Position numbers and translations under genes: made by a program
Shown here: piece by piece, positions 15,105-43,554 of the stretch
How positions within the stretch are numbered: the stretch's first letter is position 1
How the letters are laid out: every line of letters begins with the position of its first letter
Notes under the pieces: generated by a model
Told to the model about the DNA's origin: nothing
The model's database searches: none
Seen by the model: only the letters and a program-made list of their open reading frames with translations
Assembly (NCBI GenBank): GCA_039583875.1
Contig: CM077153.1
Span: 113,332,568 to 113,396,567 of the forward strand
DNA length: 64,000 bases
Direction of reading: 5' to 3'
DNA from: Platanthera guangdongensis
Lineage: Eukaryota; Streptophyta; Magnoliopsida; Asparagales; Orchidaceae

Positions 15105-15175
15105 TAATCCCCGCACATTTTTAAGTTTCCAGAAAACTTCGAAAATGTTTCCTTAACCGCGGAGTCCGCAAGCCT

Positions 15176-15183: not shown

Positions 15184-15285
15184 CCGCCAGCGCTATACAT
15201 ATCGCTGGAGGGCCTGGAACTGTTGGAAATTCCGATCGACACGGGGCGCTATTCTCCACTTGCGGTCTCCACTTTGCAGTCCGGC

Positions 15286-17245: not shown

Positions 17246-17783
17246 GTCCGTGATGCCATGAACTATGAATATGTTTGATTGTATAATTATGTGTTTTTAA
17301 ACAATGCTGTTGTAGATTGAACTGCGTTGCGATCTGCGCGGACTGAATAATATATCCGGAAATTATGTTGCTTGTTATTGCTGTGATCTGTGGCGAACTG
17401 TGCGGACTAATATTGTGTCCGCTTCACCTAATTTAACATTTGCAGGTGGGAAATGCTGCGAACTAAGCGGACTGAAACTGTGTCTGTTTCTCATGTTTGA
17501 CTTGTCTGCAGGAAGGAAGCACCGCGAGCTTGGCGGACTGAAACTGTGCCCGCCTTAACTTTTTTGCTTTGAACTTTTCTTGTCATGTGAATGTATGTTT
17601 GTGTCCGCGTTATCTTTAACTTTTGCTGCGTGAATGATTGGATTTTTTCGGACTATGCGGATTGCAAATGCGAGCTGCGCGGCCTGACCAAAAAGCTGTC
17701 AGACCCAATAACTATAAATATGGCCCTGCCGCTTCTTTCATGCAGGAAAACATTTGAAGTAAAAGAACCATGTGGCCTGCAAA
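17246..17783 (+). other. Z intergenic region between antisense genes, with TATA box
   Basis: No ORF of note. It contains repeated GCGGACTGAA...TGTGTCCGC units (about 17335, 17400, 17465, 17530) that look like a diverged tandem repeat of about 65 bp. A TATAAATA box at 17713-17720 lies about 64 bp before the gene 2 ATG. Confidence 0.55.
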
Positions 17784-21228: not shown

Positions 21229-21832
21229 TCAGGAATAGAACCGCTTGAGATCATTCCCGCTCCATGTATGCAGCATATCCTCTCCTTCGTATGTCAGCAA
21301 GCGGTAAGCGCCGCTCCTTAATTCTTCTTTGATAATGAAAGGGCCGGCCCAATTCGGATTGAGCTTCCCGACTGAACCAGCTCTTGCAGCAACGTCAACT
21401 TTCTTTAGAACTAGATCTCCCACTTGAAAGTGTTTGATTCTTACGTTCTGATCAAAGTAACGGGCCATCCTTCTTTTGACCTCCTCCTGCCTTATGACTG
21501 CTTGGTCTCTGATTGCCTCAACGTGTTCGAGGCTGAACCTCATCTCTTCATTATTCAACTCAAGCCAGTCCTCAACGCCTTGTCTTTCAAGCAAAACTCT
21601 AGGTGACGGGACTTCAAACTCAACTGGAATGAGTGCCTCTGAGCCATGAGAAAGTTTGAATGGAGTCTCCCCAGTTGCGGATGAAGGCGTTGTCCTAAGG
21701 GACCAGAGGACTGATGGAAGCTGATCAGCCCAACTGCCCTTGAGATTCTACACTTTCTTCTTGAGCAAATTGAGGATCTGCTTGTTGGCTGCTGCTACTA
21801 CTTTGCCATTGCTTCTGGGATGATGAACTGAT
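21229..21832 (-). pseudogene. Z integrase C-terminal part
   Basis: Minus strand, starting abruptly at SVHHPRSNGK. It corresponds to V from about 58005 to the end. The catalytic Glu expected in GQVEAAN is lost here (GKVVAAAN), and a TAG at 21748-21750 replaces the CAG of V. It then runs EEVKRRMARYFDQNVRIKHF to the conserved end DLKRFYS. The N-terminal part of the same protein is at 41340-41869, so the gene is cut at the inversion breakpoint with only about 6 bases missing. Confidence 0.85.
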
Positions 21833-22409
21833 CCATGCAGGAAATCAGGAAAATACAGGGGAACCATGCCTTTTACACGCGCACGGGCGCTTCCGACCGT
21901 GCATGAACAAAGTGCATGATTAACCACAGATTGGTACAAACCAGAAAGCTACAGGAAAACCGCATGTTTCCTTCGCTCACGGTTCTGAAGATCGTCGAAC
22001 TCAACTCGACGAAATTCGTCAAGCTCAACTCGACGTTTCCCCAGCTCAACCAAAACAAACGATCAAGAAGAATCGTGTGCTAAGAAAATGCACGATTGTG
22101 TGTTTTCCTCAAACCTGAATTCCATAGTTGGGGAAAACTCACCACCTGCATACAAACAAATAAATCAAAAGAGGACCCTCCAGTAATGCAGAAATGCAAC
22201 AAAAGCAACTGGAAAGAGCCCCTGGGGAGCACCATTCGCTTACCCCCAACAACAGAATGCGCAATTGCACACCTTTGGGCCAAAAAAGTGAAAAAATGGA
22301 CATATACCAGCTGATGCAAATATAATCGAATAACGGTTGAAATGCGGTGCACGAGTGAGAAAACCAGCCCAGATGAGTCCGAAAAACCATATAAATATCG
22401 GACTCATCA
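21833..22409 (-). repeat. X middle LTR, 5' part (inverted)
   Basis: Reverse complement of an X LTR from TGATGAGTCC (at 22409) to TTCCTGC (near 21838). The next LTR bases are found at 41870 onward. Just outside, 22410-22434, is the inverted X polypurine tract (minus CAAGTCTGGGGGTG). Confidence 0.85.
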
Positions 22410-22835
22410 CACCCCCAGACTTGCCTGTTTGCGCTGTAACATCCCTCAAACAACTAGACCCCTAGGAGTGGTTTTGTCACGACTAGGTCATGACAAAACC
22501 CTAGGAAGCACAAGAAGGGCAAGTGAACCTAGGAATGAAGGTGAGACCACTAAGGTCTACAAATAGTAGATTTCTGAACCCTAGTTTAACATGATCGTGG
22601 GGGCTTCACCAAGACTTCAATACCCAACCATTGTCTCACCAATCCACTGTAAGGTCCATTAGAGCACTAAGGGTCCATTGGAGTCGACCTAGGGTTGCCA
22701 AGTTTACCTAGAACCACTCTAGGCCTAAATTGGGCAAGGTGCCCTAATTAAGAGCAGTGTGCCCTAGTTAAGCCCAACTAACCCTACCAGGGTCTTCCTA
22801 GACCTAAAGTGGGGTCAATGGGTCAATGGGTCACC

Positions 22836-23476
22836 CAGGGAGTCGGGCACCACCAGCTAACGGTTCGAACACCGGGGAATAGGGGAGGAAAGGAGGAGAC
22901 TGTCGACCAATCGGTTACTAGCGGTCGCGGCTAAAGGACCGGAGAAGGGGGCCGCTGGCAGCGGCAACAGCAGAGTTCGCCCGCCGCGGCTTAAATGCCA
23001 CTCTTGCGGCGGGCTTCCCTTTACTTCAAATAAGAAACAGTTACAACGAGTAAAAGAAGAAGCCGGCCGGACTACAAGCCGCAATACACTAGACTTGAGA
23101 CCGCAGCTCTTAACAGGCGAGCTCCTGGATCCCAGTCAGCGTGTCTTGGGGAGTGCACCCTCCCCCTATTTATAGGCTCGGGGGCCTGCCCAAACGGGCA
23201 GGGCTAAAGTTACCGGCTGCCCGGGGTACAGGAGAACCGGGCAGAGGTGAGGGGAAGCAAAAGAGAAAGAAACAAGAAAGGAGGGAAGCCGCGCGGCCTG
23301 GCGGATTCCTCCTGGCGAGTTGATGGCTGGGTCCTTGGGCCTTGTCGCTGAGCAGGGTCGGCGTTGGCAGCGGCCTGACATGGAGACCGCCCGACTTGGG
23401 AGGCTTGGCGGCTTGAGTAGGCAGGCCGCCCGGTCTGGAAAGCTGCGCGGGCAGGTCGCGGATTCCGGGCTTATCA
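22836..23476 (-). repeat. W 3' LTR, lacking its last 20 bp
   Basis: 641 bp, near identical to 31002-31642. Compared with the other LTR it lacks the outer 20 bp (TGTTGATGCACG...), with Y LTR joined directly at CAGGG. Small terminal deletion; also no clear target duplication. Confidence 0.8.
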
Positions 23477-23558
23477 TAATCCCCGCACATTTTTAAGTTT
23501 CCAAAAAACTTCGAAAATGTAGAACTAAGCCGGAGACCGCGACTGCCTCATCGTTGTC

Positions 23559-23566
23559 TATAAAAT
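23559..23566 (+). promoter_or_regulatory. TATA box of W antisense gene 1
   Basis: TATAAAAT, 100 bp before the ATG at 23666, in the same position as in T1 and Z. Confidence 0.55.
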
Positions 23567-23665
23567 CCCCTGACCCTTGACATTCCTCAGGATTCCTGCC
23601 AAGCCACGGGTCGCTACTCGCCACTTGCGGTCAGAATTTTGCAAGCCGACGCGATTTCTCTAGCG

Positions 23666-25741
23666 ATGGATGTAATGTCATCAATGTTAGCCCGCAACAA
23701 GAAACCGCCAGAAACGAAGCAGAGCCGGAGCGAGAACTCGAATGATTCTGCCCGTCAGACTGCCAAGAAGACTGGGAAGCCGGAGACATCAGCGGCTTCT
23801 GGAGCTGAAAAAAGGCCGACAGAGACCGTCGGCAGACCATCGCAGGCCGCAGTAGATCCCAAAGCGGTTTCGAAGGCTTCTCCACTGCAAACCGGAATTG
23901 CCAAATCCTTCGACCTGACTTTCTCTCCATCAGGAGAACCACTCCTAAAAATCGGTGGGGCGGAGGAGAACAGTGTTGAATCTGGGAAACCGTCCGAATT
24001 GCCGGGCAAGGTCGACTTAATCGTTGTGGATGACAACGAGCCGAAGAAGGAGCTGGAGACCAAACAGATTGTAGGCGAACAGCGCAAGCGGACTGAAAAG
24101 GTGTTCGGCTCCCTGAAACGGCGGAAAGAAAGGAGCGAAACCCTTGAAGAAAGGATGAAGAGAAAGATGAGGAAGTTGCACGCCAGAAACCGGAACATTT
24201 CCGAAAAGACCGGCGCGGACAGTCTGCAACACATGCCGCACGAGAAGGAGGTACCCGAGAACCCGCCTACACCGGAGTACAAGCCGAGCGAACTGGAGAG
24301 TATGCCAGCGGTTAGCGACTCGCTCAGCGAGCTCCTGAAGGGCATGGAGACTCTCCAGCGGCAAGCCGCGCTATTGTCGACACCAGCGGCCTCTGTGGAG
24401 GTTGACCTCCCGGACATCCAGGTTATTGGGGAGAAGCCTGGCGATCCGGCTTCCGCGGCTTCTGAAGGAGCCGAGAAACTGAAGCTTCGCGAGAAGATGG
24501 AGGAGATGAAGAAACTGATCGCCGATAAGCCGGTGGCGACCGCACATCCATTGTTGCAAGGTAAACACCGGGACGTTAGCCGAATTATTAAATTCTACAA
24601 GTCGCGGTCAAGGAAGAAGGGGGCGAATATTATATTCAATCCGCCGGCCAGCTTTTTCCTGACCACGGCTCAACTGAAAAGCCGAGCTAAGGAAACCGAG
24701 CGGCTATGGAAAGAAAAGCTGAAGAGGATAGATCCTGAGCGGCTCAGGCGGCCAGTGATTAAAATACATATCGCGGCCTCTGGAGGAGATAAACATCAAA
24801 CCGGCGGTCTTATCCTACCGATTTCCTTACTAGAAGGTCGCAACAATCCGGCTGAACCTGACTGCGGTTTCTCTTATGCAGGTGTACCGGAGACCGCGAT
24901 GAAACCGGGCGACTTGACGTCGTATTTGTCTATGCTGCCACCGCCTCTGCCTCCAAGTGTTCGCGAGAAGGAGATGGCCGACTTCCAGAAGGACGTCGGC
25001 ACGCTGCAGGCGGCTTTGGACGCGGCCACCGAAACCCTGCGGATTAAAGACGAACAGCAGCGGGTTGCCCAGGAGGCCGCGGAAAAAAGGATCCAAGAGC
25101 TGCAAACCACCCTGGAGCGAGAGACCGCTAGGTTGCAAACTGCGCTTGAGCAGGAGACCGCGAGGATGAATACTGCGATGGAACAAGAGACTGCCAGGCT
25201 CCAGACCGCGATGAAGGAAGAGACCGCCAGGCTCCAGACCGCGAGGAAGGAAGAGACCGCCAGGCTCCAGACCGCGATGGAAACCGCTGAGGCGAAGATT
25301 GCTGAGATGCAGGTCGCCTTGGAGCAGGAGAGGGCGGAGAAGTATTTGCTGATGGCCGCGCGGCTGGAAGGTGACAGAGAAGAGATCCCACATGCGGAAG
25401 GCGGCGAGAACCAAGACCTACCGGCGGAGACCGGCGGAGAACAGCGGCCTGCACTACCAACTCCTGCAGAGTTGCCGGGTACTAGCCGCCCGGCCTCTGG
25501 CGAGACTTCGCATCCGTCGGTGGCCGCGGCGCCTAACCAGGTCGCAGTTCCAAGCGGTCTGGGGGTTCAGGCGATCCCCATGATACCGTTTGCGAGAGTA
25601 GAGCGCGACGCTGCGCGAGTTCATCGGTCTCTGCATGCGCTTCATAATCTGGTTAGCCAGGTGTATGTTGCGATTGTGCAGACCGGTGAGCAGGTCGCGC
25701 ACATAGGACGAGATAGGCCGGAAGACGACAAACGATCCTGA
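23666..25741 (+). CDS. W antisense gene 1: basic coiled-coil protein, intact
   Basis: I start at ATG 23666; the frame is open from 23639 but without an upstream ATG. The 691-residue product has a Ser/Lys-rich N-terminus, a basic cluster (KRRKERSE, KRKMRKLHARNRNISEKTG, nuclear-signal-like), QHMPHEKEVPE, a DPERLRRPVI block near residue 360, and a long coiled-coil. The coil contains about five 11-residue repeats of the type ETARLQTAMKE (about 25115-25280). The C-terminal block IPFARVERDAARVHRSLHAL is shared with Z and V. A possible 75-bp intron (24807-24881, GTCTTA...ATGCAG) keeps the frame; splicing would give 666 residues. Function unknown. An intact 2-kb frame in an element without pol suggests selection. 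Confidence 0.75.
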   Translation: MDVMSSMLARNKKPPETKQSRSENSNDSARQTAKKTGKPETSAASGAEKRPTETVGRPSQAAVDPKAVSKASPLQTGIAKSFDLTFSPSGEPLLKIGGAEENSVESGKPSELPGKVDLIVVDDNEPKKELETKQIVGEQRKRTEKVFGSLKRRKERSETLEERMKRKMRKLHARNRNISEKTGADSLQHMPHEKEVPENPPTPEYKPSELESMPAVSDSLSELLKGMETLQRQAALLSTPAASVEVDLPDIQVIGEKPGDPASAASEGAEKLKLREKMEEMKKLIADKPVATAHPLLQGKHRDVSRIIKFYKSRSRKKGANIIFNPPASFFLTTAQLKSRAKETERLWKEKLKRIDPERLRRPVIKIHIAASGGDKHQTGGLILPISLLEGRNNPAEPDCGFSYAGVPETAMKPGDLTSYLSMLPPPLPPSVREKEMADFQKDVGTLQAALDAATETLRIKDEQQRVAQEAAEKRIQELQTTLERETARLQTALEQETARMNTAMEQETARLQTAMKEETARLQTARKEETARLQTAMETAEAKIAEMQVALEQERAEKYLLMAARLEGDREEIPHAEGGENQDLPAETGGEQRPALPTPAELPGTSRPASGETSHPSVAAAPNQVAVPSGLGVQAIPMIPFARVERDAARVHRSLHALHNLVSQVYVAIVQTGEQVAHIGRDRPEDDKRS

Positions 25742-26157
25742 GCGACTTGAGAGAACTAAGTCGCGCGGACAATCGCAAATTATGTTGTAATATATATATT
25801 TTTCTCTGGATGTTGGACAATTTGATTGCTGTAAATTGTTGTATTCTATTATGCTGCGAACTGAATGCGGCTTATGCGGTTTGTATTTATAATCCACATG
25901 TCTGCTGCTTTGTTCTGAGAAATTTAAAGATTAGGATAGTAGCCGCGCGGTCTGGCGAACAGAACACCGGCTTGAATACTTGATATCCACATGATATGCC
26001 ATAAAAAATTTCTAAGTGCAGGGAAATAGCCGTGCGGACTGATGGACTAAACGGCGGCTTGGTCCCTAAGCTGATCTGCACTTCCAGCGGACTTAGGCCG
26101 CGCGGCGTGACGACTAGCCGCGATTTGACGTTGGGCACTATAGCTTCACGGATTTTC

Positions 26158-26165
26158 TATAAATA
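26158..26165 (+). promoter_or_regulatory. TATA box of W antisense gene 2
   Basis: TATAAATA, 38 bp before ATG 26203, implying a very short 5' leader. It is matched in Z (17713) and V (62093-62100, minus). The stretch 25742-26157 before it is noncoding and probably promoter. Confidence 0.6.
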
Positions 26166-26202
26166 GAGCAGATCTCGTAGATTTCATCACAAATCAAGAA
26201 GG

Positions 26203-28001
26203 ATGCGGGCTAAGTCCAAGTCGTTGCGGTCTGACAAGGCCACTGCGGTTAGGACAGACGCGGCCTCCGCTTTCCACTCAGCTGACCATAAAGAATGCCG
26301 GCTTACAAAAGCCGAGCTGGATGACTTTGTCGAGAAACACATGCAAGGAAGTCCGCTGATCGCGCGGCTTCCCCGACAGGATCAGCGGATCAACTCCTCC
26401 AATGCAAATCAGATCGCGTTCCCCATCGACCACTTTGACTGCGGCTTCAGCTTCCCGGTCATGCTGGAGGCCGTAGCGGTCTTCGACCACTACGGAGTTG
26501 TGCCCGGACAACTTCCCCCAAACTCGATAGCCGCCATCTACAGCTTCATCTCCTACCTCAGGTCGGAAAGAGTCCGCTTCTCTATGAGGCTCTTTCGAGA
26601 GTGCTTTTCGGTGTGGTCTATCCCGGACTCCGGGACAAAGATCTTCCGGGGGCACCTCTACTTCGGCTGCAGAGGGCTGAAGATAGTCAACTTGGCCAAC
26701 AAGATCGCGAACTGGCCGGAGCGGTTTCTCATCTTCGAGGGAAACCTGGGGTTGCTGCCGGTCGACCCCCAAATCCGCGAAGAAGCCGCCTTCGGCAGCA
26801 GCGGCTTGGACGGCATGGAGAAGGAGATCTACGACTTCTTCAAAGGCGAGCGGCTTGATGTAAACCACTACATCCCGCTGTTGCCGTCGCTAGTAGGAGT
26901 AGAGGCGGAAGACAGTAAGCTCCAAGCCGGCCGACCTGATATCTTAGCCGCACGGACTGGAAACTAACTTTGCCTTTATCTTTGCAGCGGCTGTGGCGGT
27001 CCCGCTGAACAAGCCGCAGACTCCTGGCAGCTTGACCCTCACTCAAAGAGAAAAGAGAGCGAAGCGGGCCAAGCCGGCGCGAGCTGCGGAGGAGGAGGAG
27101 TCGGACTCCTCTGGAGAGTTCATTCTGCAAGAAACAGGCAGCAGCTTGAAGGATGTCCACGGCGATCCGGCCTTGCGGTGGAGTCCGAACGGCAAGTCGG
27201 TGACGATCTCCACCGCCCTCCCCTACTGGGGAGCGGAAGAAGTAAGCCGCCATGCGAGCGCGGTTGGCGGCGCGCTGTATGGTAAGCGCAACTTGAGGGC
27301 TATGCGACGAGTTCCTCCAGACGACCTGCCGCGGCTAGCCGCGCAAGTCGGCGCGAGGAGCTTCGTGGCAAGTCACTTCATGGGCCTTGCCTACAAGCAG
27401 CTGATGAAGGAGAACAGCGGCCTGAAGACACAGTTAGGCGAACAACAAGAAGAGAACAAGCGGCTTAAGGAAAAGGAGGCGGTAAGTCATTACCAATACT
27501 CGTGCGGTTAGCATTATGTAACCGCGCGACCTTACCTTTACTTTTGCTTTGCAGGAAATGTATAACCCGGCCAATCCCATCTTCCAAGACCAAGTCTTCC
27601 CCCAACTCGTCCAAGGGATTGATGGAGCACTTAATCGCCTCCGGGACCTTGGCGGCTTGGCCACCGGCTTCACCGACTTTACATGCGCCGACATCTACCC
27701 CTCCCTGAAAGAGCAGGTGGCCGACGTCTATAGGTCGATCAAGGGCAAGGCCAAGGTCGGGGAAGAAGTCGGCGAGGTGGTCGGAGAAGCCGTGGAAGAG
27801 GTCGGCCAGGGAAGCCGGAGTCCACGCACATCGCTTGAGTCCGGCGTCCAAGAATCGGAGACCGCGCGGCCAGACTCGACAACTTCTGGCGGTTCAGCGA
27901 GCTCCGCAACTAGCAGCGGATACTCTCTATCATCCGTCGACATCGGCGACGGCAGTGATTTGTATTCTCCTGCGACTAAGAAGCTCAAACCGGGCGATTA
28001 G
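26203..28001 (+). CDS. W antisense gene 2: PF04195-like protein, three exons, intact
   Basis: Exons 26203-26914, 26988-27481 and 27555-28001; introns are 73 bp each with GTAAGC...TTTGCAG and GTAAGT...TTTGCAG. Total 1653 bases, 550 residues, in frame. Exon 1 is the domain I recall as 'putative gypsy type transposon' (PF04195): FPIDHFDCGFSFPVMLEAVA, YGVVPGQLPPN, SFISYLRSERVRFSM, GHLYFGCRGL, RFLIFEGNLG. Exon 2 has a basic segment (KRAKRAKPA), then YGKRNLRAM, LAYKQLMKENSGLKTQL and a coiled-coil. Exon 3 is Ser-rich and acidic, ending YSPATKKLKPGD. The same exon boundaries occur in Z and V. Role unknown; possibly nuclear or a regulator of the element. Confidence 0.8.
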
Positions 28002-29596
28002 AAAATCTGTAACTTGTTTTTGTATTTTGAACTTTTTTTTTGAAATCGGCGGTATTGTTTTTGTAACCGCGCGATTAAGACTTTGTAATACTTAATGAAA
28101 TGGAAATGAAGGCATTTTTACCTTTCTCTTTGTTATATTTCACTTTTCTTACTTGACTAAGTCCGCGCGGTCTCAGTTTAGCTTCCGATTTAAAATATGA
28201 GTATGTAAACCGGCTGAGTTTGCGCTGCGACTTCAACAAAGCTATCCGCAAGAGAGAGATATTTTCCTGCGGTTAATACCGGAGTGCACGTCGACGATAA
28301 GCCGAGCGGCTAATAACTTAAACCGCAATTTTCCTTAATGAATTATTCAACGTTATCTGTTGGAAGGGCTGAATTGCCGCGGCTTGCTCATACATAAACC
28401 GTGACCGCTAAGCCGCGCGGCCACCTGTTGCGGTCGGCAGACATCCATAACATTGAAATATTAGATTGCGGCTAGGGCGAACTCTGAAACGAATTGCCCA
28501 TTTGATTAAAGGAACAAGAATAGAGAAACAAGCTTCGGCTTCCGATAATACATGCCGATATAGGCATATGGAAGCCGGGAATTGTTGTGACGACAGTTCG
28601 CTGATTAGCTAATATAATTAATACCATAAGCCGGCAGATCAAAGCCAGGAATTAAGTGCCAGACGCAGGTCGGGCGACTTCCTTTCCATATGAATAACAA
28701 ACCGGCAACTGATATATTTGAACCAAATAAGATACTGAATAGCGGATAGGCGGACGTAAGTCGGCCGAGTTCCCAAATATATTAATGATAATCCGGCAGG
28801 TAGGAACAGGAAAGTTAAAAAACTTAAGCCGGAATATGAAACCGGGCTGCTTGTGTAATTAATTATACAACCTGCACAGGCCGCTTAGTAAAACCGCGAG
28901 ATAGCGGATAGGCGCGTGTTGTCCTGCAAAAATAGGTAAAGACATGCACTTATGTGTCAATGTGGGCAGGTGCGCGCGGCATTGCTTTCCACACAAAGAA
29001 CCCATAAGCGAGATCGAAATTCTTAAAATCCATGACCGATGTCAAGCGGGACAAGTACGCAACGTCTGCAACTGAAGTCAAATAGGACAAGTACGCAATG
29101 TCTGCGACGAAGGTCAAGCGGGACAAGTACGTAATGCCTGTCTGTGACTGAAGTCATGCGTGACGGGTACGCAATGTCTGCGACTGAAGGCCAAGCGGAA
29201 AACCCACTACACATCTGCGACTGAAGTCAAGCAGGACAAGTACGCAATGTCTGCGACGAAGGTCAAGCGGGACAAGTACGTAATGCCTGTCTGTGACTGA
29301 AGTCAAGCGGGATGTGGAGGGCTTAAGAATTCGAAAGGGGCTCTTGCCCCTACATGCATGCATATTGGCATAAAGAGTAAAGCTAAAAATAAGCTTCAAA
29401 TGAAAAAGTAACATTTGCACGATGTTAAGGAAGTGACAAAGGATATATATCTGTAGTTTTATCATGCCTCATTAATACCGATTGTGAAGGAGATGTTATG
29501 TACTATTCTGAACATAAGCACTTTTCTTTATAGAAAGAAAGAGGAATCACTGCTTGAATTATTGAGCAAGAAATGAAAGATTGCCTTAGAGAGTTA
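28002..29596. other. W noncoding region with tandem repeats and conserved hairpin
   Basis: No gene. The hairpin core GGGCAGGTGCGCGCGGCATTG seen in Z and V is at about 28963-28990, with outer arms CTTATG and CATAAG (28947-29010). At 29030-29320 there are about seven units of a 36-40 bp repeat of the type GTCAAGCGGGACAAGTACGC..TGTCTGCGAC. ORFs reported across this array are repeat artefacts. Confidence 0.7.
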
Positions 29597-30706
29597 CTAA
29601 ATAACATATTCTTGCAACTTTCCAGCTCTTACAAGTTGATTAGCCAATTCCCTAAGAGCTATGCAATCTTCTGCTAGATGACCAATATCTTTATGATACT
29701 TGCAAAAAAGTTGCTCGTGCCGATACTTGATTTTGGATTTCATACGCCGAGGCTTCTTGAACTCGGGCATTCCCTGAATGATTATCAAAAGATCTTCCAT
29801 AGGAATTTTAAACTTAACATACTTACCTGAACCTTTTTCATACTTTGGAGTTTTATCCTGGAGAATATAAGGAGACTTGGAATATTCAACTTGCAAAACA
29901 TCTTGTGAGGAAGTAGATTGCTGTTGACCAGAAGTCCCTTGAGATTGTTTGGCCATTTGATTCAGAAATGAAACATAACCTTTTTTTGCCTCTTCGCCCA
30001 TTATGAATGTATTAACTATATCAATAAGATCTCCGTAGCTCTTGGGATATTTTGTGGTGAGCTTGAATTTCAATGGGCCTTCTTGAAGTGCGTTTATGAA
30101 AGCATACAAGTAATAGTCTTGATGGACGCTACAAATATCTAAAACCTCCTTTTGAAACCGATCAACAAAATCTGGATTAGACTCGTCAATTCCTTGCTTG
30201 ATTCGGAAGAGAGCTCCAACGTCTCTTTTCCGCTTCCTGTAAATAGCGAATCTAGAAATAAATTGACTTCGAAGATCCTTAAAGCTGGTTACTGATCGAG
30301 GTGGGAGGCTATAAAACCATTCTCTTACAACATTGCCAAAAGATACAACGAAGAGTTTGCATTTTACTCCATTTGACACTTTTCTCAATGAAATAGCTGA
30401 TTCAAAAGCTTGCAAATGAGAAAACGGATCATCACATCCAGAATACTCCGGGAGACGCGGTACTCTAAAGTTATCAGAGACAGTATCCCACCGAATACGA
30501 TTAATGAATGGAGAAGGGGCCTCTTCTTCGTCCTCACAAAGAGGTTCATTTGCAACAGATTCTAGTCCACGCTCAACACTGTTTGCAAAAATTTCTCTTT
30601 GAGGGTCAACAACCTCACTATTAAAATACGAGCAATCCTGCACTTCTGAGAGATCTGTAGTCACTGAGATGCAGCTTGATTTACCATGGCCCTTTGCATG
30701 ATTCAT
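29597..30706 (-). CDS. gag: W gag polyprotein
   Basis: 369 residues, ATG at 30706. The capsid-like region matches V and Z gag: FINRIRWDTVSDNFRVPRLP, YSGCDDPFSHLQAFESAISL, VREWFYSLPPRSVTSFKDL, FVDRFQKEVLDIC and LQEGPLKFKLTTKYP. It ends just after a zinc knuckle CKYHKDIGHLAEDC (C-x2-H-x4-H-x4-C). It would package element RNA in cytoplasmic particles. The frame is uninterrupted, unlike Z and V gag. No protease follows; the stop comes about 20 residues after the knuckle. Confidence 0.85.
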   Translation of the reverse strand: MNHAKGHGKSSCISVTTDLSEVQDCSYFNSEVVDPQREIFANSVERGLESVANEPLCEDEEEAPSPFINRIRWDTVSDNFRVPRLPEYSGCDDPFSHLQAFESAISLRKVSNGVKCKLFVVSFGNVVREWFYSLPPRSVTSFKDLRSQFISRFAIYRKRKRDVGALFRIKQGIDESNPDFVDRFQKEVLDICSVHQDYYLYAFINALQEGPLKFKLTTKYPKSYGDLIDIVNTFIMGEEAKKGYVSFLNQMAKQSQGTSGQQQSTSSQDVLQVEYSKSPYILQDKTPKYEKGSGKYVKFKIPMEDLLIIIQGMPEFKKPRRMKSKIKYRHEQLFCKYHKDIGHLAEDCIALRELANQLVRAGKLQEYVI

Positions 30707-30981
30707 CCTGAAAAGAAAGAATAGCCGAACTTTTTCAAGAGACCGCAGAACAGCGGCGGCTTAATGTGGCGGCTAGAGGATACTGCAAACCGATAAGAAG
30801 ACCGGCTGAAAAGAGAGCGGATAGAATGCCAGGTTCCACAGCACTGGAGGCGGGCTGAAAACCTTAGCCGGCGAAACCGCGGCTTGCTCGACAGGCCGCC
30901 GAACTCTAGAGGATAGAGCGGTCTAATTAGCTAGACCGCTGATTTCATCGATTAGTCGAGATCTGAAGGTCGCGTGTTAAC

Positions 30982-31642
30982 TGTTGATGCACGAAAACGG
31001 ACAGGGAGTCGGGCACCACCAGCTAACGGTTCGAACACCGGGGAATAGGGGAGGAAAGGAGGAGACTGTTGACCAATCGGTTACTAGCGGTCGCGGCTAA
31101 AGGACCGGAGAAGGGGGCCGCTGGCAGCGGCAACAGCAGAGTTCGCCCGCCGCGGCTTAAATGCCACTCTTGCGGCGGGCTTTCCCTTACTTCAAATAAG
31201 AAACAGTTACAACGAGTAAAAGAAGAAGCCGGCCGGACTACAAGCCGCAATACACTAGACTTGAGACCGCAGCTCTTAACAGGCGAGCTCCTGGATCCCA
31301 GTCAGCGTGTCTTGGGGAGTGCACCCTCCCCCTATTTATAGGCTCGGGGGCCTGCCCAAACGGGCAGGGCTAAAGTTACCGACTGCCCGGGGTACAGGAG
31401 AACCGGGCAGAGGTGAGGGGAAGCAAAAGAGAAAGAAACAAGAAAGGAGGGAAGCCGCGCGGCCTGGCGGATTCCTCCTGGCGAGCTGACGGCTGCGTCC
31501 TTGGGCCTTGTCGCTGAGCAGGGTCGGCGTTGGCAGCGGCCTGACATGGAGACCGCCCGGCTTGGGAGGCTTGGCGGCTTGAGTAGGCAGGCCGCCCGGT
31601 CTGGAAAGCTGCGCGGGCAGGTCGCGGATTCCGGGCTTATCA
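30982..31642 (-). repeat. W 5' LTR
   Basis: 661 bp, TGTTGATGCACG to GGGCTTATCA on the plus strand. Immediately left (minus strand, downstream) is GTTAACACGCGACCTTCAGA, the conserved candidate primer site. Confidence 0.85.
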
Positions 31643-34600
31643 GATAGCAATCAAAGTGGTTAAGTTGACCAAAGTCAACTCTAACACTAAATGGGTCAAA
31701 CTAGCCTACTTACGAATTGACCATCCCCTAGCCAGGTGGACCCCACCCATGCCCTCCTAACCTTAACGTGAGGTCAATGGGTCACCTAGGACCCATTAGG
31801 GTCAACTCTATACCCTAAGTTGACCCAAGTCAACCTTAGTCCTAAAAGGGTCAAAGTGCCCTAACTAAGAGGCTGGTGACCTACAATGTGCGAGTTGACC
31901 CTACCCAAGTACTCCTATACCTTAGGGGAGGCCCATGGGTCACCAATGACCCATTGGGTCAGCCCTAGTGGCTAATTTGACCAAAGTCAACCCTCGGGTC
32001 AAAGTGGTCAAACTAGCCTAAATGGCTAACTCAAGCCCAATCCAAGTGGGCTACGCCTAGGCAAGTGTGGCCCATTGGTCTAGGAGGTGGTAAGACACAT
32101 TTTGGGTCCACCAAATTCAGAAATGGGTGACTAGGAGAGAGAAAGAGGGAGTTACCCAAACTTTGAGGAGAGAGAAAGAGGAGCTTAATGTCCATCATGG
32201 CCATGGATGCCCTTTACCCCCCCCCCCTTTTGATGGGGCTTTAACTCCTTAGAGGCAGGGGAGGAGTTTTCAGCAGGTGGTCGGCCAGTGGGGTGGCTCA
32301 GCTCTTCAAGTTTGTGAAAACAAAATTTTCCCATTATGACCATTCATGGCCATTGGAGTTACACCCTTCCCCATCCCCAACTGAGAGTCTTAAAAGCATC
32401 ACCAGGTAGAGGGGAGGAGGTTACAACCTTTACCTGGAGGATTCAAGGCGTTTGACGGTGCTATTGCAGAAACCCGATCGCCGCCACCACCACCATGGCA
32501 ACCTGGAGATCAGCTCGCCTCTAGCCTTCCCAGCAGGTCCTCCCCTTCTCCATTTTCCATGGGTAGATCGTAGGACTAATTAGGGTAAAGGTTCGGGCTC
32601 AATTGAGCTCGATTAGAGGATCTATTTTCCTGGATTTTGGAGAAAATTGAGACTGTCGGGATTGCCAGAAAAGGGCCCTCCGGCATCCGTGCCGCCGTCT
32701 GGCGACAGCCACCACCTCAACGGAGGTGGTGGTGGCGGTGGCCGGCCAGGGAGGTGGCCGGAAGACCGGCGACATCGTTTGGAAATGGCTCCAAGCGGGT
32801 TGAATCGGGACCGTTGGATGGAGGTTGAAGACAACCGGCCGCCGCCCGATTTGCGTCAAGATTCCCGCTGGCAATGATTTAAACTATAGGATATAATTAT
32901 TTTGATTATTTCAATTCTGTCACACTTTTACTATTTAATGTTTGAAATTACTAAAAATAGTTAGAGGCTCTGTATGAGAAAATGGTCAACACATGATTTG
33001 TAGCCCTATGGGTGTTTTTTAATTCAAAATTAGTTTGAACCAATTTGGGTGCCTAGTTTGACCAGGGCACTCGTTTTGGTAGGGTATATACCTAGGTCTA
33101 GGCAGAAATTAAAATGGATGCCCACCCTTCATCTCTGGTCAAAATGACTTGAAATTTGGAAAAGGAGTCTCCCTAGATCATATCTAGGTCTTGCCAAAAA
33201 ATGAAAATTTTTGGGCACAATTTTTCTATAGTTTTGGAAATAATTTAATTTCTCTAGGGTAATTTAATTTAGAGACCAAATGACATCCAAACTCAACCAA
33301 ATTTTGGTGCGCGGTACCTGGGGTCATTATAAAGCTCTAGTTATAATTTCAACTCATTTGGAGGTGCTTTGAGTTGAAATCATGCAAACCCTAGCCTTGT
33401 CATAATAAAGGTCTTTGGTCAAAAAGTGCAATTTGTGTTTTGAGTGGCCAAATTACCTAAACAGAGGTTGAAATTGGGGCCACTGACTTGTCATGGCTTT
33501 TAGCATCTCGCCATGGAAGATGGGATAGTTTGGAATTGATTTGCCCTAAGACCTAAGGCCAAACCCTAAGGAAGGGCTTTTATGTCTTGTGAAGGGCATG
33601 AGGTCAAAAGAGCTTGAGTGAACTTCAAATTTGGTAGGGAGACTGCTATGGTAGCTAAATCTCCGTGGTAAAAATATTAGGGGATTTGGGAAAGAGTAGG
33701 CCCCACAAAACCGTATCCCTAGTTAGTGCACAAACTTTGTTGTGCTAGAATAGGTTAGTAAAACTCCTTGAACAATAACGAAATTTGGGTAGTGTGAACT
33801 TAGGAGTAGAATGAATCTCTGGTATTTTAAAAGAGTATTTTGAGTCATTAATTCTGGTACTTCCTTTATAAATGCATGAGTTAGCCCTAATTATTTATCT
33901 GGATATTATGATCTCATTTCCCATTGGAAGGTCATGAAAATTTGGTTGAGAGAGTTTTAGACCTTATTGCTTATGTGAGAATTTTATTAGAATTTTTGAA
34001 TGCATATTTGCAGTACTTACTTCACAAGCTCATTAACTTGGAAAATTGTTCAATAAATTGCTTAGAGCTCATTACTTGTTAATAAATTATGACACTTTTC
34101 CTCGAACATTTATTTCTCCTTACAATTATTCTTGAATTTTCTCCGAATTTTTGGAAATATTTTTGCTGCACATGCCTCTTAATATTGATAAAAATAGATT
34201 ATATTCAAAATTAGAATTAGAGGATAAACCTTACTGAAAATTTGGGACATTTTGCATTTTAAGATAAAAAGTCATATTGAATTTATCATAAATTTTAAGG
34301 ACCATTTGATTGTTTGAAGTTGATACTTCATGTTCAAACTTGGGGTTTTGAATTACTACAATAATTAAATAAACTATCAGATAAATTAGGAAAATTATGA
34401 AATTCTGTATTTAGTTAAAAAGGTCATGATAGACCCCCAATAATTATTATAGGGTTATCAGATGATTATTTTGAGTACCTCCCATTTTACACACCATATA
34501 GCTTATATTGATCTACATTTAGTAAAACTGCAGAAGTTAGGATGGAATATGAATTTGGGCACATGAGTTGGCGTTAGATATTTGCTGGGTTGGATAAATA

Positions 34601-36433
34601 AGATTGAGTTCATCTTTGGAAGTTACGATGAGTAAAGTGTTGGATTGGCTAGCGTTAGGTAGAGCTCGGGATCGACGAAAGATCGTTTTTCCGAGGGGAG
34701 GAAGTGTCAAATACTCTAGGGTTAGATCCAGTACAACAAGGAAAGGTTAGGGAAACTTCATAGCAACTAACAATAGTAAGTGCCTTGCGAAAGGGAGCCT
34801 TGGGCATAATCCAATCATAATTCCTAGTGCCTTTGAGAGCCCTTCACGGGGTATACCTTGGGCAGTCCTAGGCTAACCTAAGTTGTAGGTAACTAAATTA
34901 CAAGAGTAACTAGTGTAACTAGGGGTTCACTCAAACTATCCTCGATGTCACAAAATGCTAGGTTGGGTCACTCGGGCAATAGGCGCGGTGGATATGGTGA
35001 TGGGCAGGTTGGCCCGGCGAGCTTTGGCTCGGGTGTTTTCTGTGATGGGCAGGTTGCCCCGGCGAGCTTTGGCTCAGGTGTTGTCTGTGATGGGCAGGTT
35101 GGCTCGGCGAGCTTTTGCTCGGTTGTCGTTTGTGACGGACGGGTTGGTCCAGGGAGCTTAGGTTTGGTGGTGATACATTAAGGTTGCATGTGCATAAATT
35201 ATAAGATTGTGGGTCTTCGGTATTGGAGAGTCGATGCACCGACGCCAATACGTTGACTCGGTAAGTGTGGTTTAGCACTTTTCCAAATAAAGTCTAGTGC
35301 GCCAGCCGGCAAGAGTACGCAGGAGCTCCGCTTAGTGCACCAGCATTGAGGCGTACGATAGGTCTGACTGGTAGTGAAATTACCAGTTTAGAGGTTGGCG
35401 AGGCCCAACCCACCGCTTCTGTTTGCCACTACGAAGGTATCCTGGGAGGTTCGGCTCCAGAAAGGGGGAACTAAAGGTCTGTGTACACAGAGTCGAGTGG
35501 GTGAGTTGCACATGCATGTTCACATCATGGCATAATTGTATTTCATGGCATAATCATTGCATATAACCCGACACTTATTTTATAAGTGGTATGGGGCGCT
35601 TATACAATAGGCCCTGCAGAACGACCCCTTGGTTTATAAGCTCGTGCGAGCATGCTTATAAGTTAAGGTTTATTTCAGTAAATATAAATATATAATTGCT
35701 AGAAAACCGACACCCTATCGTATAAATTGGTATGAGACTTTTTATACGATAGTAGCCCTGCAAAAGATCCTTTGGCTTATGTGTTATCATATAAGTTAAG
35801 GTTACTTCTCTTGTTCAGTTTTTCATACCTCTATTACTGCCTTATATACTATAGAACTGCTAGGTTAGTTCCGCCACCATCTCCTTATTTGTTATTCTCC
35901 ACTTTCATGTCCTCTCCTCTCTTCCTCCCCGCTCGATGCCTAGGAGCCATGGGGGAAGGGGCGGGGGATGATAGGACTTAGTATTTTAGACTAACGGTTT
36001 TCGAACCACATCATGTTAGGGGACCGTGGAGCCCAGCATGGAGGAGCAGCCCCGGAGGTCGGCACGCTTGGAGATGGGGCAATCTAGTACCGAAGTTCAG
36101 ATGGCAGGGACTGTGAGTCCTGTTCGGTACTAGTGGTTTTAGTTTTGCTTCCGCGATGAGAGATATGTAGTGACGATTTGATGTACTGGGCATGAGACCA
36201 AGATTTTAGTATTTTGTTATATCTATGGACACTCCCTTCGGGGAGATTATTTTTATGTGGACTTGCCTTTTATTATTTTGCTACAGTTGTGATCGATTTG
36301 GCCGGCAGGATCGGCATTTTGTAGTGATGACCATCCCAGGCGTGAAGGTGTCACCGCAAAGCAGCAATTCTGGGCCTAAGACCCCAGTGTTTCAAAAAAA
36401 AAACGGGGGGGGGGGGGGGGGGGGGGTCTTACA

Positions 36434-36603
36434 AGTGTTATCAGAGCAGACCTCGATCGAAAGTAGCAGTCCACAACCCCTGGGTCACCCCTGCGTAGGT
36501 TTAGTTTGGGGACACACTAAGCAGTGGAAGCACTAGTGTGGCCATATGGGGGATCACATGTAAATTGTCCACTTTTAATTAGTTTTGAGTCAATTACTTA
36601 CAA
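36434..36603 (+). promoter_or_regulatory. Y primer-binding site and leader
   Basis: AGTGTTATCAGAGCAGA directly after the LTR resembles TGGTATCAGAGC, the initiator tRNA-Met site, with one base changed. The rest up to the ATG at 36604 is leader. Confidence 0.7.
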
Positions 36604-38726
36604 ATGGAGTTTGTTACGCAGCCCCCAGCACAGCCTATGCCACAGGGCGGAGTCCAGCAGACTCTGATTGTTGCACCACCTCCCCCAGTCCCCACTCAGT
36701 TCCTACAGTCAGAGATGGGGCAGACTCTGACAGCTATCTTGGAGGCTTTTATGGCTAAACAAGTTCCGGCTCCGCAGCCAAACCAGGGGGCCAACTGGCT
36801 GAGTATAATCCGAGGACTTTCTCCCCCATCCTACTTGGGGACAGATTCGGCCACAGACGTGCGGAGTTTTCTAGGACTTGCCAGTTACTACCGGAAGTTC
36901 GTGGAGGGATTTTCTGGTATTGCCCTTCCACTAACATCCCTGAAGAGGAAGGAGATGCCCTTTGTCTGGAACCCACGGTGCGATGTTGATTTTCAGGTGC
37001 TGAAGGATCGACTCACCTCGGCTCCTATACTAGCCCTCCCTTCGGGGAAAGAAGGATTCCAGGTCTACACCGACGCTTCCTACCAGGGCATGGGTACAGT
37101 GCTGATGCAGAATGGTCATGTGATGGTGTATGCCTCACGACAGCTGAAGAAGCATGAGCAGAAATACCGTGTTCATGACTTAGAGATAGGAACAGTCATA
37201 CTTGCTCTGAAGGTCTGGCGGCACTGTCTGTATGGTGTACACTGCGACATATACTCCGACCACAAAAATTTGAGGTATGTGGACACGTAGAAAGAGCTGA
37301 ATATCAGGCAGAGGCGGTGGGTGGAGCTCCTAGCAGATTACCAGTACGAGATGCACTACCACCCTATGAAGGAGAATGTGGTGGTAGATGCGCTGAGCCG
37401 GAAGGCCATAAACTCTAGAGCAGGTACGCAGTTGATGTCCTTGGAGTTATTTCAGATGTTAGAAAAGATGCAGATATCCTTGGTATCCGAGGATAACCCT
37501 GAGCTATACCGTTAGTACCTAGCTTCGTTGGTTGCCCTAGATGACATTCGAGACCGAGTCAGAGATGGGCAGAGGCAGGATGCACAGCTAGAGCCGAAAT
37601 TCCGGGCCTTAGAAGCAGGCACAGCTGGAGATTACTCACTGAGGGATGGTCTAGTGTGTTTCAGAGGACGGATTTACATACCAGAGGGAGGCCAGGTCCG
37701 GGAAGATATCATGATGGAGTCTCATTGCAGTCGCTATTCAGTACACCCGGGAGTTACGAAGATGTCTGCGTACCTGAAAAAGACCATGTACTGGCCAGGC
37801 ATGAAGAAGAATATCACCTACTTTGTGACCCATTGCGAGGCATGCCCACTGGTGAAGGCAGAATGCAGAAACCCCGCAGGATTACTGCAGCCGCTCCCAG
37901 TGCCAGAGTGGAAGTTCGATGATATCGCGATTGACTTCATACACGGGCTTCCTCGATTGCGGACGGGAAATGATTGTTTCTGGGTGATCGTCGACCGGCT
38001 GACAAAGGTAGCCAGATTTATTCTGATCCGAAAGGATGACTCGGTTACTGTGCTGGTTCGGAAATTCGTGGAGTAATTCGTTCGTTATCATGGTGTACCC
38101 AGGTCGACTGTATTGGATTGGGATGGACGGTTTACGTCCAGGAAGTGGAGATCAGTGCAGACTTACTTGGCCACTTCTCATTCAGTACAACCTTCCATTC
38201 CCAGACTAATGGGTAGACGGAACGCACGAATCGGATCTTGGAAGATCTATTCCAACTTTGCATATTGGATTGCAGTGAGCCTTGGGAGAAGCTATTGCCA
38301 CTGATCGAGTTCTCATATAACAACAGCTACCAGTCCAGCATAAGGATGGCTCCTTATGAGGCCTTATACGGACAGAGGTGTAGGACTCCGCTATCATGGA
38401 TACAGGACGAGGATCAGAAGGATTTGGGTTCGGAGTTTGTTGAGGACACCGAGACCAGGTGAGGTTGATACGGGACAGGATGCTAGAGGCACAGAGCCGA
38501 CAGGCTAATTATTACGACGCTCGGCATGGTCAGGTGGAGTTCCAGGTGGGGGACAAGGTGTTCTGGAATATCCGACCGATGCATGGGGTTTCACGGGTAC
38601 GCGATCGGAAGAAGAAGCTCAGCCCAAGATATATGGGGCCTTATAGGATGCGGGAGTGGATCAGTCCCTCGGCTTATAGGCTGGAGCTGCCACCGGAGCT
38701 GGGAAACCTACACGACGTGTTCCATA
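36604..38726 (+). pseudogene. Y gag-pol remnant: gag N-terminus fused to RNase H, then integrase
   Basis: The first frame (36604-37290) starts as gag (MEFVTQPPAQP, then RGLSPPSYLGTDSATD) and switches straight into the end of RT (VRSFLGLASYYRKFVEGF) and RNase H (FQVYTDASYQGMGTVLMQ). Most of gag, all of protease and the RT fingers and palm are deleted. Integrase follows with a zinc module (HCSRYSVHPG, HCEACP), DFIHGLP, and a damaged second half. Stops at 37288 (TAG), 37513 (TAG), 38074 (TAA) and 38214 (TAG) each sit where CAG or CAA is expected. The last frame (38459-38726) ends LPPELGNLHDVFHM at the Z insertion; its chromodomain end is at 14335-13979. Confidence 0.85.
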
Positions 38727-39497
38727 TGTTAACCCCTCAGTCCGCAACATCCTACAAGATGCCAAGACCCTCCTTTCAACACTCGCGGACTCAATTAGGC
38801 AGTCCGCCCAGTCCGTCAATATAGCAGCAATCGGCCACCAAGGATGATCCCCCAGCGGCGGACTCAACGCTCTATTCGCTAGTCCGCCATGCCTAAGGAT
38901 CTATAGATTCTCTATAACGGCGGATGCAGTGTCTCGTCCGCCCAGGTCGTCGTCCTCCAGTAGGATCGCGCCTAGCAGCAGCAGATGGAAGCTCCAGCCC
39001 GCGAGCCCAGTCCGCCCCTTCTGTACGGACTGGTGTGTTCTATCTTTTTGCTTCCCGTCACCGCTGCCCGGTTCTCCTGTACCCCGGGCAGCCGTTTGTT
39101 TTAGCCCTGCCCGTTTGGGCAGGCCCCCCATCCTATAAATAAGGGGGAGGTGGTGCACCCAAGGGACGCTGACTCGTGCCCAGGAGCCTACTTGTTAAAG
39201 GCTGCGGACTCGAATCTTCTGCCTTGCGGACTCCAGCTTGCTCTGCTCTTATCTTCCTTTTTTCCTTCACCTGTAACCAAACCTTTCTTCAATCAAGGAA
39301 AAGCCCGTTGCAAGAGAGGCATTCAGGCCGCGACGGGCGAAGTCTGTTGTTGTCGTGGCTCACGGCCCTGCTGCTTTTTCCTGCTCTCGTCCACTTAGTA
39401 GATTGCTACTCGCAGTCTCTCCTTTCCTTTCGTTTCCCTTGTGCTCGAACCGTTAGCTGGTGCTGCTCGATCCCCTTTGCATTTTCATGCATCAACA
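38727..39497 (+). repeat. Z 5' LTR
   Basis: 771 bp, TGTTAACCCC to GCATCAACA. TATAAATA at 39134-39141 follows the palindrome CCTGCCC-GTTT-GGGCAGG (about 39106), a layout shared by Z and V LTRs. Then comes the conserved GTTAACACGCGACCTTCAGA. Confidence 0.9.
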
Positions 39498-39549
39498 GTT
39501 AACACGCGACCTTCAGATTCGAGTGTCATTTTGAATTCAGCGGATATAA

Positions 39550-40432
39550 ATGTCAGACCGCAGAGCCCACTCTTCAGACCGCTCCAGTTCTTTAGAGGAC
39601 TCCCTCTAGGATGCAATTGAACAAGCTCACTTTGAGGCCAAGCAGTCCCGCATTCCGACTGACCAGCGTCTCGACACGATCAGCCAAGCCCTGCTTGTCT
39701 TAACCCAGCGGCTTGCTCCTCAGGCCGCAGCACAACCAGCGGACTCACCGGTCCGCCAGACTCCAGCTCGCCGAACTCCGCTTCGGCAGTCGCCAGCCAC
39801 TCCTCGGAATCCTGCTCAGTTCTCCGCCCCTCTGCGCCCTCAGGAGGAGCAGTTTGCTTTCAGGAATTTCTTCAGAGAAGCTGCCAGGGGCACTCCTGCC
39901 CGCCAGCTTCATTTTGCTGACCGCCAGTCCGCCGAGCCCGCGGACTCCCCTGCTTCAGTCCGCCCCTTCTAACCTGCTAAGTTCGAGACTCCGTCTCCCT
40001 TCGTTGATCGAATCCGATGGGAGTCGGCTCCGAACAACTTCAGAGAGCATCGCCTTCCCTTCTATTCGGGGGAGACTGACCAGTCTCTCACCTCCAAGCA
40101 TTTGAAGGGGCATTTGCTTTGAGATGCCTCTCAGATGCCATCAAGTGTAAACTCCTGGTAACCACTCTCGAAGGACAGGCGAGAGAGTGATTCTATGAGC
40201 TGCCTTCGGGAACAATTTCTTCTTTCGCTGAGCTTCGCAGCGAGTTGTTGCTTCGGTTTGCTACCTCCAAGAAGAGGAAGGATGGGCCAGCTGCCCTCTT
40301 TGAAATCAAACAAAGGGACAACGAATCAGTGGCGAGATTCGTTGATCGCTTTCAAAAGGAGATCCAAGGGGTAAGGAATGTGAACCCGATTATTACAAGG
40401 TCGCCTTGATCCATGGCCTCCGCCTGATAAGG
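39550..40432 (+). pseudogene. gag: Z gag, decayed
   Basis: Starts MSDRRAHSSDRSSSLEDSL with a stop immediately after. It can be followed through several stops and frameshifts by comparison with V gag (QRLDTISQALL, FVDRIRWESAP, DAIKCKLLVTTLEGQ, FVDRFQKEIQGVRNVN). It ends in ALIHGLR at the internal deletion, so the zinc knuckle is missing. Confidence 0.75.
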
Positions 40433-40433
40433 A

Positions 40434-41869
40434 ATGTTCCCAATATACTATGTTAGCCATATCCTGAAGAGTGCTGAGACACGGTATCCGATCTTGGAGA
40501 AGTTAGCCTTGGCACTAGTCATGTCAGCCCGCAGACTCCGTCCATATTTCCAAGTGCACTCGATTCAAGTCGTCACCGATCAACCTTTGAAGAGTGTGTT
40601 GGAGAAGCCGGACCATTCTGGCAGATTAGCTAAGTGGGCAATAGAGTTGAGTGAATTTGAAATCTCTTATGTGCCCAAGACAGCCATCAAAGCTCAAGTC
40701 CTAGCAGACTTCCTAATTGACATGCCAGAGTCCAGTTCTGATCGAGCAGAAAGGTCACCTTTGGCTTGGACCATCTATGTTGATGGTGCCTCAGGCAGAA
40801 GTTCTTCTAGAGCAGGAGTGATTCTCATTAATCCAAACGGTGTCAAATTGGAACAGGCCATCAAGTTTTACTTTCCAGTAACCAATAACCAGGCCGAGTA
40901 TGAAGCTCTGCTAGCAGGCTTGAGACTTGCAAGGGAACTCAGAATCGATCATGTTCACATCAAAACCGATTCTGTTGTAATGGCGTCGCAAGTCCTTGGC
41001 AATTTTGAGACAAGAGAGGCTATATTGAAGAAGTATCTGGCTCTTGTGAAGATAGAGATCGACAAGTTCAAGAGCTTCATCATTGAGCATATTTCTAGAA
41101 CCGAGAACGAGGAGGATGATGTTCTTGCTAAGCATGGGATGCCATCAGGAGGAACAACTTCCGAGCTTTTCTGCCCGGCAGTGGAGGAAGGAGAATTGAT
41201 GCAAGTAGATCAACGTCCCTCCTGGATGGACCCATTCATTCTCTATCTGTCAACAGAAGATTTCCACCATTCAGTCAAGGATAAAAAAAAATTCAGAATA
41301 AAAGCAACACATTATTTCTTACTGGTAGGAATCCTTTATGGAAGAACATTCCTTTCTAACATGTCCCGGTGTGTTTCAGAAGAAGAAGCTCCCCTTCTTT
41401 TACAAGAAGTTCATTCAGGAGAGTGTGGAAGTCACTCGGGAGCAAGAACCTTGGAAAGGCGGATCCTGCGGCAGGGATATTTCTGGCCCACTATGAAGAG
41501 AGACTCTGAGATCTATGCTAGAAAGTGTATTCAATGCCAGAAGTTTGCTCCACTTCAACTTCAAGCAGCTCAGTCACTCGGATTGATTGCAACTCCTTGG
41601 CCCTTTGCGGTTTGGGGGATGGATCTCATTGGTCCTTTTCCCATGGCAAGCGGACAACGGCGTTTCATCATTGTAATGATCGACTACTTCAGCAAGTGGA
41701 TTGAAGCCAAGGCATTGGCTAAGACAACTACTGAGGTCATCAAAAACTTCATTTGGGGAGAGATTGTCTGCCGACATGGAATTCCTATGGCTATAAACAC
41801 TGATAATGGGCCACAATTCAACAACTCAGAGATGATAGATTTTTGCAAGCAGGTCGGAACAGAGCTGCG
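40434..41869 (+). pseudogene. pol: Z RNase H, second RNase H and N-terminal integrase
   Basis: Open frame. First comes the end of the RT-linked RNase H (PIYYVSHILKSAETRYPILE, VPKTAIKAQVLADFLID). Then a second RNase H of the archaeal-like type that marks the Tat group, with active-site motifs YVDGAS, NQAEYEALL, KTDS and a changed EDDVLAKHG. The integrase zinc module is complete (HSGECGSHSGA and CIQC). The core has WGMDLIGPF and NTDNGPQF, then is cut at GTELR at the inversion breakpoint; the ORF runs on into X LTR. The remaining part is at 21832-21229. Confidence 0.85.
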
Positions 41870-42971
41870 GTTGTTTACCAGTACGATTTCCTTCATACAC
41901 AGGCGGAAGCGTTCGTGCGCGATTAAAATGCATGGGTCAACGCATCTTCATCAACAAGCTTGGCCTATAAGTTAATAATGCACGGTTACCGCACGGTCAT
42001 TCGCCAGACAGTGCGTGACTATTTTTCTGACCTGCTTCTATTTAAGCACAGATTTTCCTCCAATTTAAAGACCGGACTTCAGCCATTCCAGTCGCCATTT
42101 AGGGCAAAGTTCTATTGTTTCCCTTCATTCTCCACTGTGCAGAGGCCTCCGGGCAAGCTTTTAATGCCAAATTAAAGCCGGAGCTTCTTCTCGGCGTCCT
42201 CCCTCATCCTTGAGCTTCAAGAAGAGTTTGATCTAGCTTTCTCCGTCAAGTTAGGAGAAGTTTCTACCATCCTACACCGGATCATGACACGAAGAAGACA
42301 GGTCCATTAGTACTTAGTGACAACCTCCTCTACCCCGGAAGCAGTTGAGGACCGAGCTAGGACGCGGATTGACAACCTGGCTATTCCTTCCGTGAATCCT
42401 CAGCAAGACCGTCGGATCTGGTTGATTTTGCACACTCTCTTCCTGTTTTATTGTTGATAGTGTAGTTTGATCTCTTTGTATATGATAAAGTGTGCTTAAT
42501 GTAATATATGTTTGTATACAATTTTGTCTATTTGATTTTATATTTATGTTTTTTTGCTTGAGGTGCGCCATTTCCTTCTGCCACCACATCTAGTTTTGCC
42601 GCTCTAGCTATTGCTAGAGGCGTGCGTAGCGAAGAGGTGCTCTTGACCCTCATTCTGCCATTCTAACCACCTCATCTGCAAGACTACTCGTCCATCCGCC
42701 TAGCGATTTGGTGCATAGCGGCCAGTGTAGTTTTCCATCCCGCCTGGCGAAGCATCGCACAGTGTCGTTGCATAGGAGTAGTTTATTATCATATTACTTT
42801 CTTTTTCCGCAACAATCAAAACCCACCTTCGTAAACTCTGACCTAAGCACTTAAATATAAAGTCCTCAAAATAAACTCCACCTTACTGTGTTCCTTGAGA
42901 GATCGATACTTGGTGACTTTCACCCATTTTATATTACTTGTGCAACCGGTACACTTGTCGTTAAACGTTCA
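41870..42971 (+). repeat. X middle LTR, 3' part
   Basis: Begins TTGTTTACCAGTACGATTTCC, homologous to TGTTTTTACCCGTGCGATTTCC at 46014 inside the complete LTR, and ends ACGTTCA at 42971. With 21833-22409 it makes about 1.68 kb. Confidence 0.8.
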
Positions 42972-43554
42972 TGGCGTCCCTCTCCACCTCGGCTTGGTTC
43001 TAGCGGATTACTTCATTCACCAGGCCACGTACGTGCCTCTGAAGGCCATCAGTGGTTCGCACTTTACTACGCGAATCGCCAAGGGATTAGGAGTTTTTGA
43101 CACTTTTCACGCCATGTCTCCCGTTTGCCATGGCGATTTCATCTTGGCCACCATGATGACTGCCTTCAGATTGGTACGTCGCGTTTCCTCTGGCAGTTCA
43201 TGGCGCTTCGTTATTCATACTATGGAGCCTGAGCAGCCAACTAGGGCTTTTTCTGCTGATGCAGGATCCTCTTCAGAGTCCCTCTGGATCGACGATGTCG
43301 TTCCGGTCCATCCCGTGCCCCTGGCACCAGCACCTTCTTTTGCCCATGCCTCGCATCGTACGAGTTTCGCGGAGGATTGTCCCAACTTCTACGCACGACA
43401 TATGCAGATGGAGGAGCTGTTGCGCGAGCAACACGACATGATGATGCGCATTGTTGACCTTCTTCAGGTGCCCCCTGCTGCCCCTGCTCGATCTTCTACT
43501 TCTCGTGCCCGTACTCCGCTTCCGCCTCCATCTTTTCCCGATCAGCCTGAGTGA
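42972..43554 (+). pseudogene. X Athila-type ORF, C-terminal fragment
   Basis: The frame enters from the LTR (VPLHLGLVLADYFIHQATYV, ISGSHFTTRIAKGLGVFDTF) and runs to a stop at 43554 with a His/Pro/Ser-rich end (MQMEELLREQHDMMMRIVDL, then PPAAPARSS). Layout and wording resemble the end of the ATHILA ORF-1 group, by memory only. The 5' part and pol are missing; the LTR joins it directly, so it has no start of its own. Confidence 0.5.

Follow-up and report, generated by a model that had tools for sequence, protein, structure and literature searches.

In the 64,000-nucleotide stretch of Platanthera guangdongensis contig CM077153.1 analysed here (the window; all positions are counted from its first base), a block of about 20 kb inside a stack of nested long terminal repeat (LTR) retrotransposons appears to have been inverted. 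We put the probability of this reading, in which two breaks were resolved by end joining after the element called Z had inserted, at roughly 0.85. The block runs from 21836 to 41872 (20,037 bp, no strand assigned), with ends uncertain by about 3 bases; an earlier note on this DNA had placed it at 21833-41869. The retrotransposons concerned are nested as follows: Y in X, Z in Y, and W in an LTR of Y. The window also holds V, an uninterrupted relative of Z.

The flip was tested by comparing the separated pieces of each element with uninterrupted relatives and reading off the coordinates. Self-comparison, junction alignments and protein comparison all give the same picture: the junctions are reciprocal, and collinearity of the broken elements is regained on flipping the coordinates. 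The LTR pair of Y and the LTR pair of Z each stand in inverted orientation at present, and the flip restores both; the target-site duplication of Z is found only as a reverse complement (match 4/5). The outermost LTR copies of X, L1 and L3, are both flanked by GTAGT, which places the block wholly within X. A single balanced inversion after the Z insertion is thus supported as an account of every break, and on this point the earlier note, which had one flip repairing all of them, stands with its coordinates shifted.

One break lies in the Z integrase gene. V 56563-57999 matches 40436-41872 on the plus strand and V 63998-58000 matches 15754-21835 on the minus strand, and the two halves of Z, which now lie in opposite orientation, one at each end of the block, adjoin in V at bases 57999/58000 (residues 520/521). 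With the V open reading frame (ORF) 56441-58603 as query, tblastn places residues 42-520 at 40437-41873 and residues 521-720 at 21834-21232. Besides these, the query hits only V itself and, weakly (33%), the SH3 region of Y; this search therefore found no second copy of either integrase half in the window. The Pfam integrase core reaches the last of its 102 profile positions in V and in Z stops at position 95, and Z-V identity is similar in the 200-base bins on either side of the break (0.875 and 0.925). A check that does not depend on V set 120 listed proteins, out of 1471 found, against the window: 107 match both halves, and in 87 of these the halves are 0-2 residues apart (0 in 56, 1 in 21 and 2 in 10). 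Since the halves abut against V and in most listed homologs, the proposal that the flip rejoins the Z integrase is borne out.

The second break lies in the middle LTR of X. Between its two target-site duplications (GTAGT at 5589-5593 and 47118-47122, both plus), X comprises LTR copy L1 (5594-7298, plus), a first internal part interrupted by Y (7299-8803, plus), the middle LTR in two parts (21836-22409, minus, reversed by the inversion, and 41873-42971, plus, its right end read by eye), a second internal part (42972-45424, plus, of which 43973-45396 duplicates the first) and LTR copy L3 (45425-47117, plus). Aligned to L3, the pieces of the middle LTR stop at 46009 and resume at 46018; aligned to L1, they stop at 6189 and resume at 6199. 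The two parts thus abut but for 8-9 bases, as expected if the flip rejoins them.

Junction A (21835/21836) joins the Z integrase on the left to the reversed middle X LTR on the right, and junction B (41872/41873) joins the Z integrase on the left to the middle X LTR on the right. Their bases were read by eye from alignments. Junction A has at most 1 extra base, and no shared bases were seen in its alignment; at junction B either about 3 bases are shared or 1 is extra. At most one base per junction fits neither side. The loss in X is 8-9 bases, or about 5 if the 3 bases shared by Z and X at junction B are assigned to X, and none is measurable in Z by alignment to V. Of the losses of about 6 and 4 bases claimed earlier, the small loss in X (5-9) holds and the one in Z does not (about 0). 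The claim that the breaks share few bases (about 4) agrees with the roughly 3 at junction B and the lack of extended homology.

How might such joins arise? Inversions in repeat-rich DNA frequently come about by recombination between inverted repeats, a route described in PMC13393857, and the block could have been flipped in this way. Here, though, the breaks lie in different elements, the LTRs of Y and of Z would have been direct and not inverted before the flip, and the best alignment common to the 1-kb regions around both ancestral break sites (in V, and in L3 or L1) is an 11-base word with an E value of 0.34. With only that word in common, repeat recombination is very unlikely, and the earlier preference for end joining over LTR-LTR recombination is upheld. 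Replication template switching (fork stalling and template switching or microhomology-mediated break-induced replication, FoSTeS/MMBIR), producing the inversion in two jumps, could explain the roughly 3 shared bases at junction B. We consider it highly improbable: the event is balanced, with Z loss unmeasurable and 5-9 bases lost from X, junction A offers no visible shared bases, and neither self-comparison nor junction alignments revealed a duplicated segment at the junctions. Autointegration makes inversions within LTR elements, and the order could in principle have been reversed by self-integration of retrotransposon DNA before insertion. The block, however, holds parts of X, Y, W and Z, and the LTR terminus expected of self-integration was found at neither junction; these junction positions refute the idea, to which we give almost no credence.

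We therefore return to end joining. A pair of double-strand breaks, in the Z integrase gene and the middle X LTR, would have released a 20-kb piece, and non-homologous end joining would have put it back the other way round. That both breaks were repaired jointly, and that the pathway was end joining, we infer from the balanced structure, the small loss and the near-blunt joins. What the alignments contain is consistent with this: no extended homology, small losses (5-9 bases in X, about 0 in Z) and at most 1 extra base per join.

A fragile hairpin at the X break was considered as well and set aside as nothing special. In folding of 150-base stretches, the break site gives z -5.7 in L3 and z -3.4 in L1, and the Z break site in V gives z +1.1; among 3194 scanned windows the X site ranks 36 (L3) and 184 (L1), the V site ranks 1455, and the best windows over the present junctions rank 198 and 1845. 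The strongest fold of that scan, at about 50741-50901, is a TA repeat.

Several observations weigh against the inversion and should be kept in mind. The order is read from the assembled sequence of a single genome. The target-site duplication of Y matches at 3/5, and Y is a candidate Ty3/gypsy chromovirus whose Chromo match (E 0.0025, 18.2 bits) falls under the Pfam cut-off of 25.1. Among the listed homologs, 19 of the 107 have overlapping ends (-3 to -13), 13 of the 120 match the first Z half alone, and one of the 107, P0001, shows a 108-residue gap between the halves; its alignment to V likewise falls into two overlapping pieces, and on that ground P0001 carries, to judge from the alignments, a repeat or rearrangement of its own. 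Finally, of the two parts of the middle X LTR, the first stands further from L1 and L3 (Kimura two-parameter, K2P, distances of 0.263 and 0.309) than the second (0.163 and 0.154).

The excess divergence in that first part falls in alignment columns of about 100-400 (61/98 to 76/99 per bin), off the break. By 100-column bin, identity is approximately 62-77% in columns 100-400 and 79-87% elsewhere (last 3 columns omitted); columns 500-599, beside the break, give 83/100 and 79/100, and the first bin across it 77/99 and 74/99. We read the first part as a probable variant or mosaic LTR rather than a further rearrangement. The alternative of two unrelated pieces was rejected, identity beside the break being alike on both sides; it is also countered by the X internal end, which continues into the middle LTR across Y.

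The most serious competitor is an assembly or cloning error in which the block was placed backwards. The order is that of the assembled sequence, and assemblies are known to go astray in nested retrotransposons; PMC2773423 describes two nested complexes of unsettled order, with sequence lost by misassembly of near-identical LTRs. Yet the joins found here share at most about 3 bases, carry small losses or extra bases and lie inside two unrelated elements, joins that an overlap assembler or a repeat-end join would hardly yield, and reciprocal mid-element errors would be needed at both. We regard such an error as unlikely.

The history of the stack can be read from its LTRs. K2P distances are 0.131 for X (L1-L3), 0.085 and 0.070 for two pieces of Y, and 0.058 for Z, with standard errors of the plain differences of about 0.008 (X), 0.004 (first piece of Y) and 0.008 (Z). 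The rank X > Y > Z is the same as the order of nesting. For W the distance is about 0.016 or less when its LTRs are cut at 23480/31648; a value of 0.037 was rejected, the alignment having run beyond the LTR end into Y. At the Platanthera rate of 1.65e-8 (PMC9023349, where it is printed as per Ma; taken here as per year), X would be approximately 4.0 million years old, Y 2.6, Z 1.8 and W 0.5. As Z inserted before the flip, its LTR distance sets the maximum age; for a host with the Platanthera rate, the flip should fall within the last 1.8 million years or so. W, the youngest by LTR distance and inside the block, could have inserted before the flip or after it. Nesting and LTR distances agree with the earlier order C1, X, Y, Z, inversion as regards X, Y and Z and a flip after Z; C1 was not identified, no CACTA-type end pattern being present in 3201-5594 or 47101-52240 (only such patterns were tried).

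End joining of two breaks is a recognised route to inversions in plant repeat DNA (PMC13393857). The inversions described there are alike in having two breaks, a reversed piece, minimal loss and little or no shared sequence; the present case differs in that nested elements, not a second genome, serve as witnesses, and otherwise in nothing essential to that description. In the maize p1 cluster (PMC2686159), a nested stack likewise orders and dates events and an end-joining scar lies nearby, although that scar consists of 50 bp of filler DNA plus a deletion, and here the inversion is balanced with at most 1 extra base per join. REANNOTATE (PMC2672092) works along the same lines, piecing fragments together into element models so as to recover their history; as described in 2008, it handled collinear fragments and named inversion detection as future work. 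No title on this locus appeared in the literature searched for inversions, nested elements, break repair and orchid genomes. The event is of a known, ordinary kind, and a new instance for which the nested elements themselves provide unusually good documentation.

The inversion has no evident function. It interrupts the reading frame of the Z integrase and leaves formerly direct LTR repeats as long inverted ones, a conversion of which end joining would thus be capable. Its value lies in being a small balanced inversion recorded with internal controls, to within a few bases and without a second genome, with a maximum age from Z. Such a locus would be misread by annotation that takes fragments to be collinear. 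More speculatively, end-joining balanced inversions of tens of kb might be common in repeat-packed large orchid genomes and have gone uncounted because they are gene-free; nested stacks could then serve as single-genome recorders for counting and dating them, a generalisation that we offer tentatively and think rather doubtful.

In the present order, Y consists of a 3' LTR of about 5.2 kb outside the block (8804-13978, minus), an internal end (13979-14335, minus) with a weak chromodomain match within 14026-14334 (minus), a 5' LTR that the inversion reversed and W interrupts (22435-36427, plus), and an internal region up to the Z insertion (36428-38726, plus) with reverse transcriptase (RT)/RNase H, integrase zinc finger and SH3_Tf2-1. 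W, a Z-related element, occupies 22836-31646 (minus). Its left LTR is about 21 terminal bases shorter than the right copy, and on the left W is not sharply set off from the Y LTR, a few bases being assignable to either.

X has the layout LTR, internal, LTR, about 1 kb of other sequence, internal, LTR, with an internal distance of 0.125, which suggests a tandem X that would have formed near the time of insertion. The roughly 1 kb between the middle LTR and the second internal copy (42972-43972) has no match elsewhere in the window, and its 193-aa open frame gave no Pfam match up to E 1.

A second RNase H between RT/RNase H and integrase marks the Tat-like lineage of Ty3/gypsy elements. RVT_3, this second RNase H, lies at residues 157-274 of V ORF 56441-58603 and 117-234 of Z ORF 40434-41975, which assigns both elements to that lineage. 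Among the listed matches of the V pol ORF, Platanthera zijinensis supplies the best, with 59-64% identity in 7 of 120 rows; the remaining rows show 38-52%. For the V gag-region ORF, Platanthera proteins reach 69-83% in 8 of 11 rows, and rows from Curcuma, Actinidia and Cannabis (3 of 11) reach 33-35%. Judged by these two proteins of a single element, the host is probably an orchid close to Platanthera; a grass, to which base composition had pointed, was rejected in the light of the protein matches.

A few smaller features of this family may be useful to annotators. An antisense ORF with a PF04195 match lies opposite the pol or gag strand in Z (17763-18398) and W (26203-26967). Short tandem repeats occur downstream of the integrase in Z (20085-20534) and V (59287-59551), with another in W (29033-29312). 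A further Z-family 3' end sits at the left window edge (39-3262; 68% identical to 14336-17589 in reverse), and 5 bases upstream of the first LTR of V, at 52238-52323, there is a stretch of 86 bases that repeats the Z/V-family LTR end in inverted orientation.
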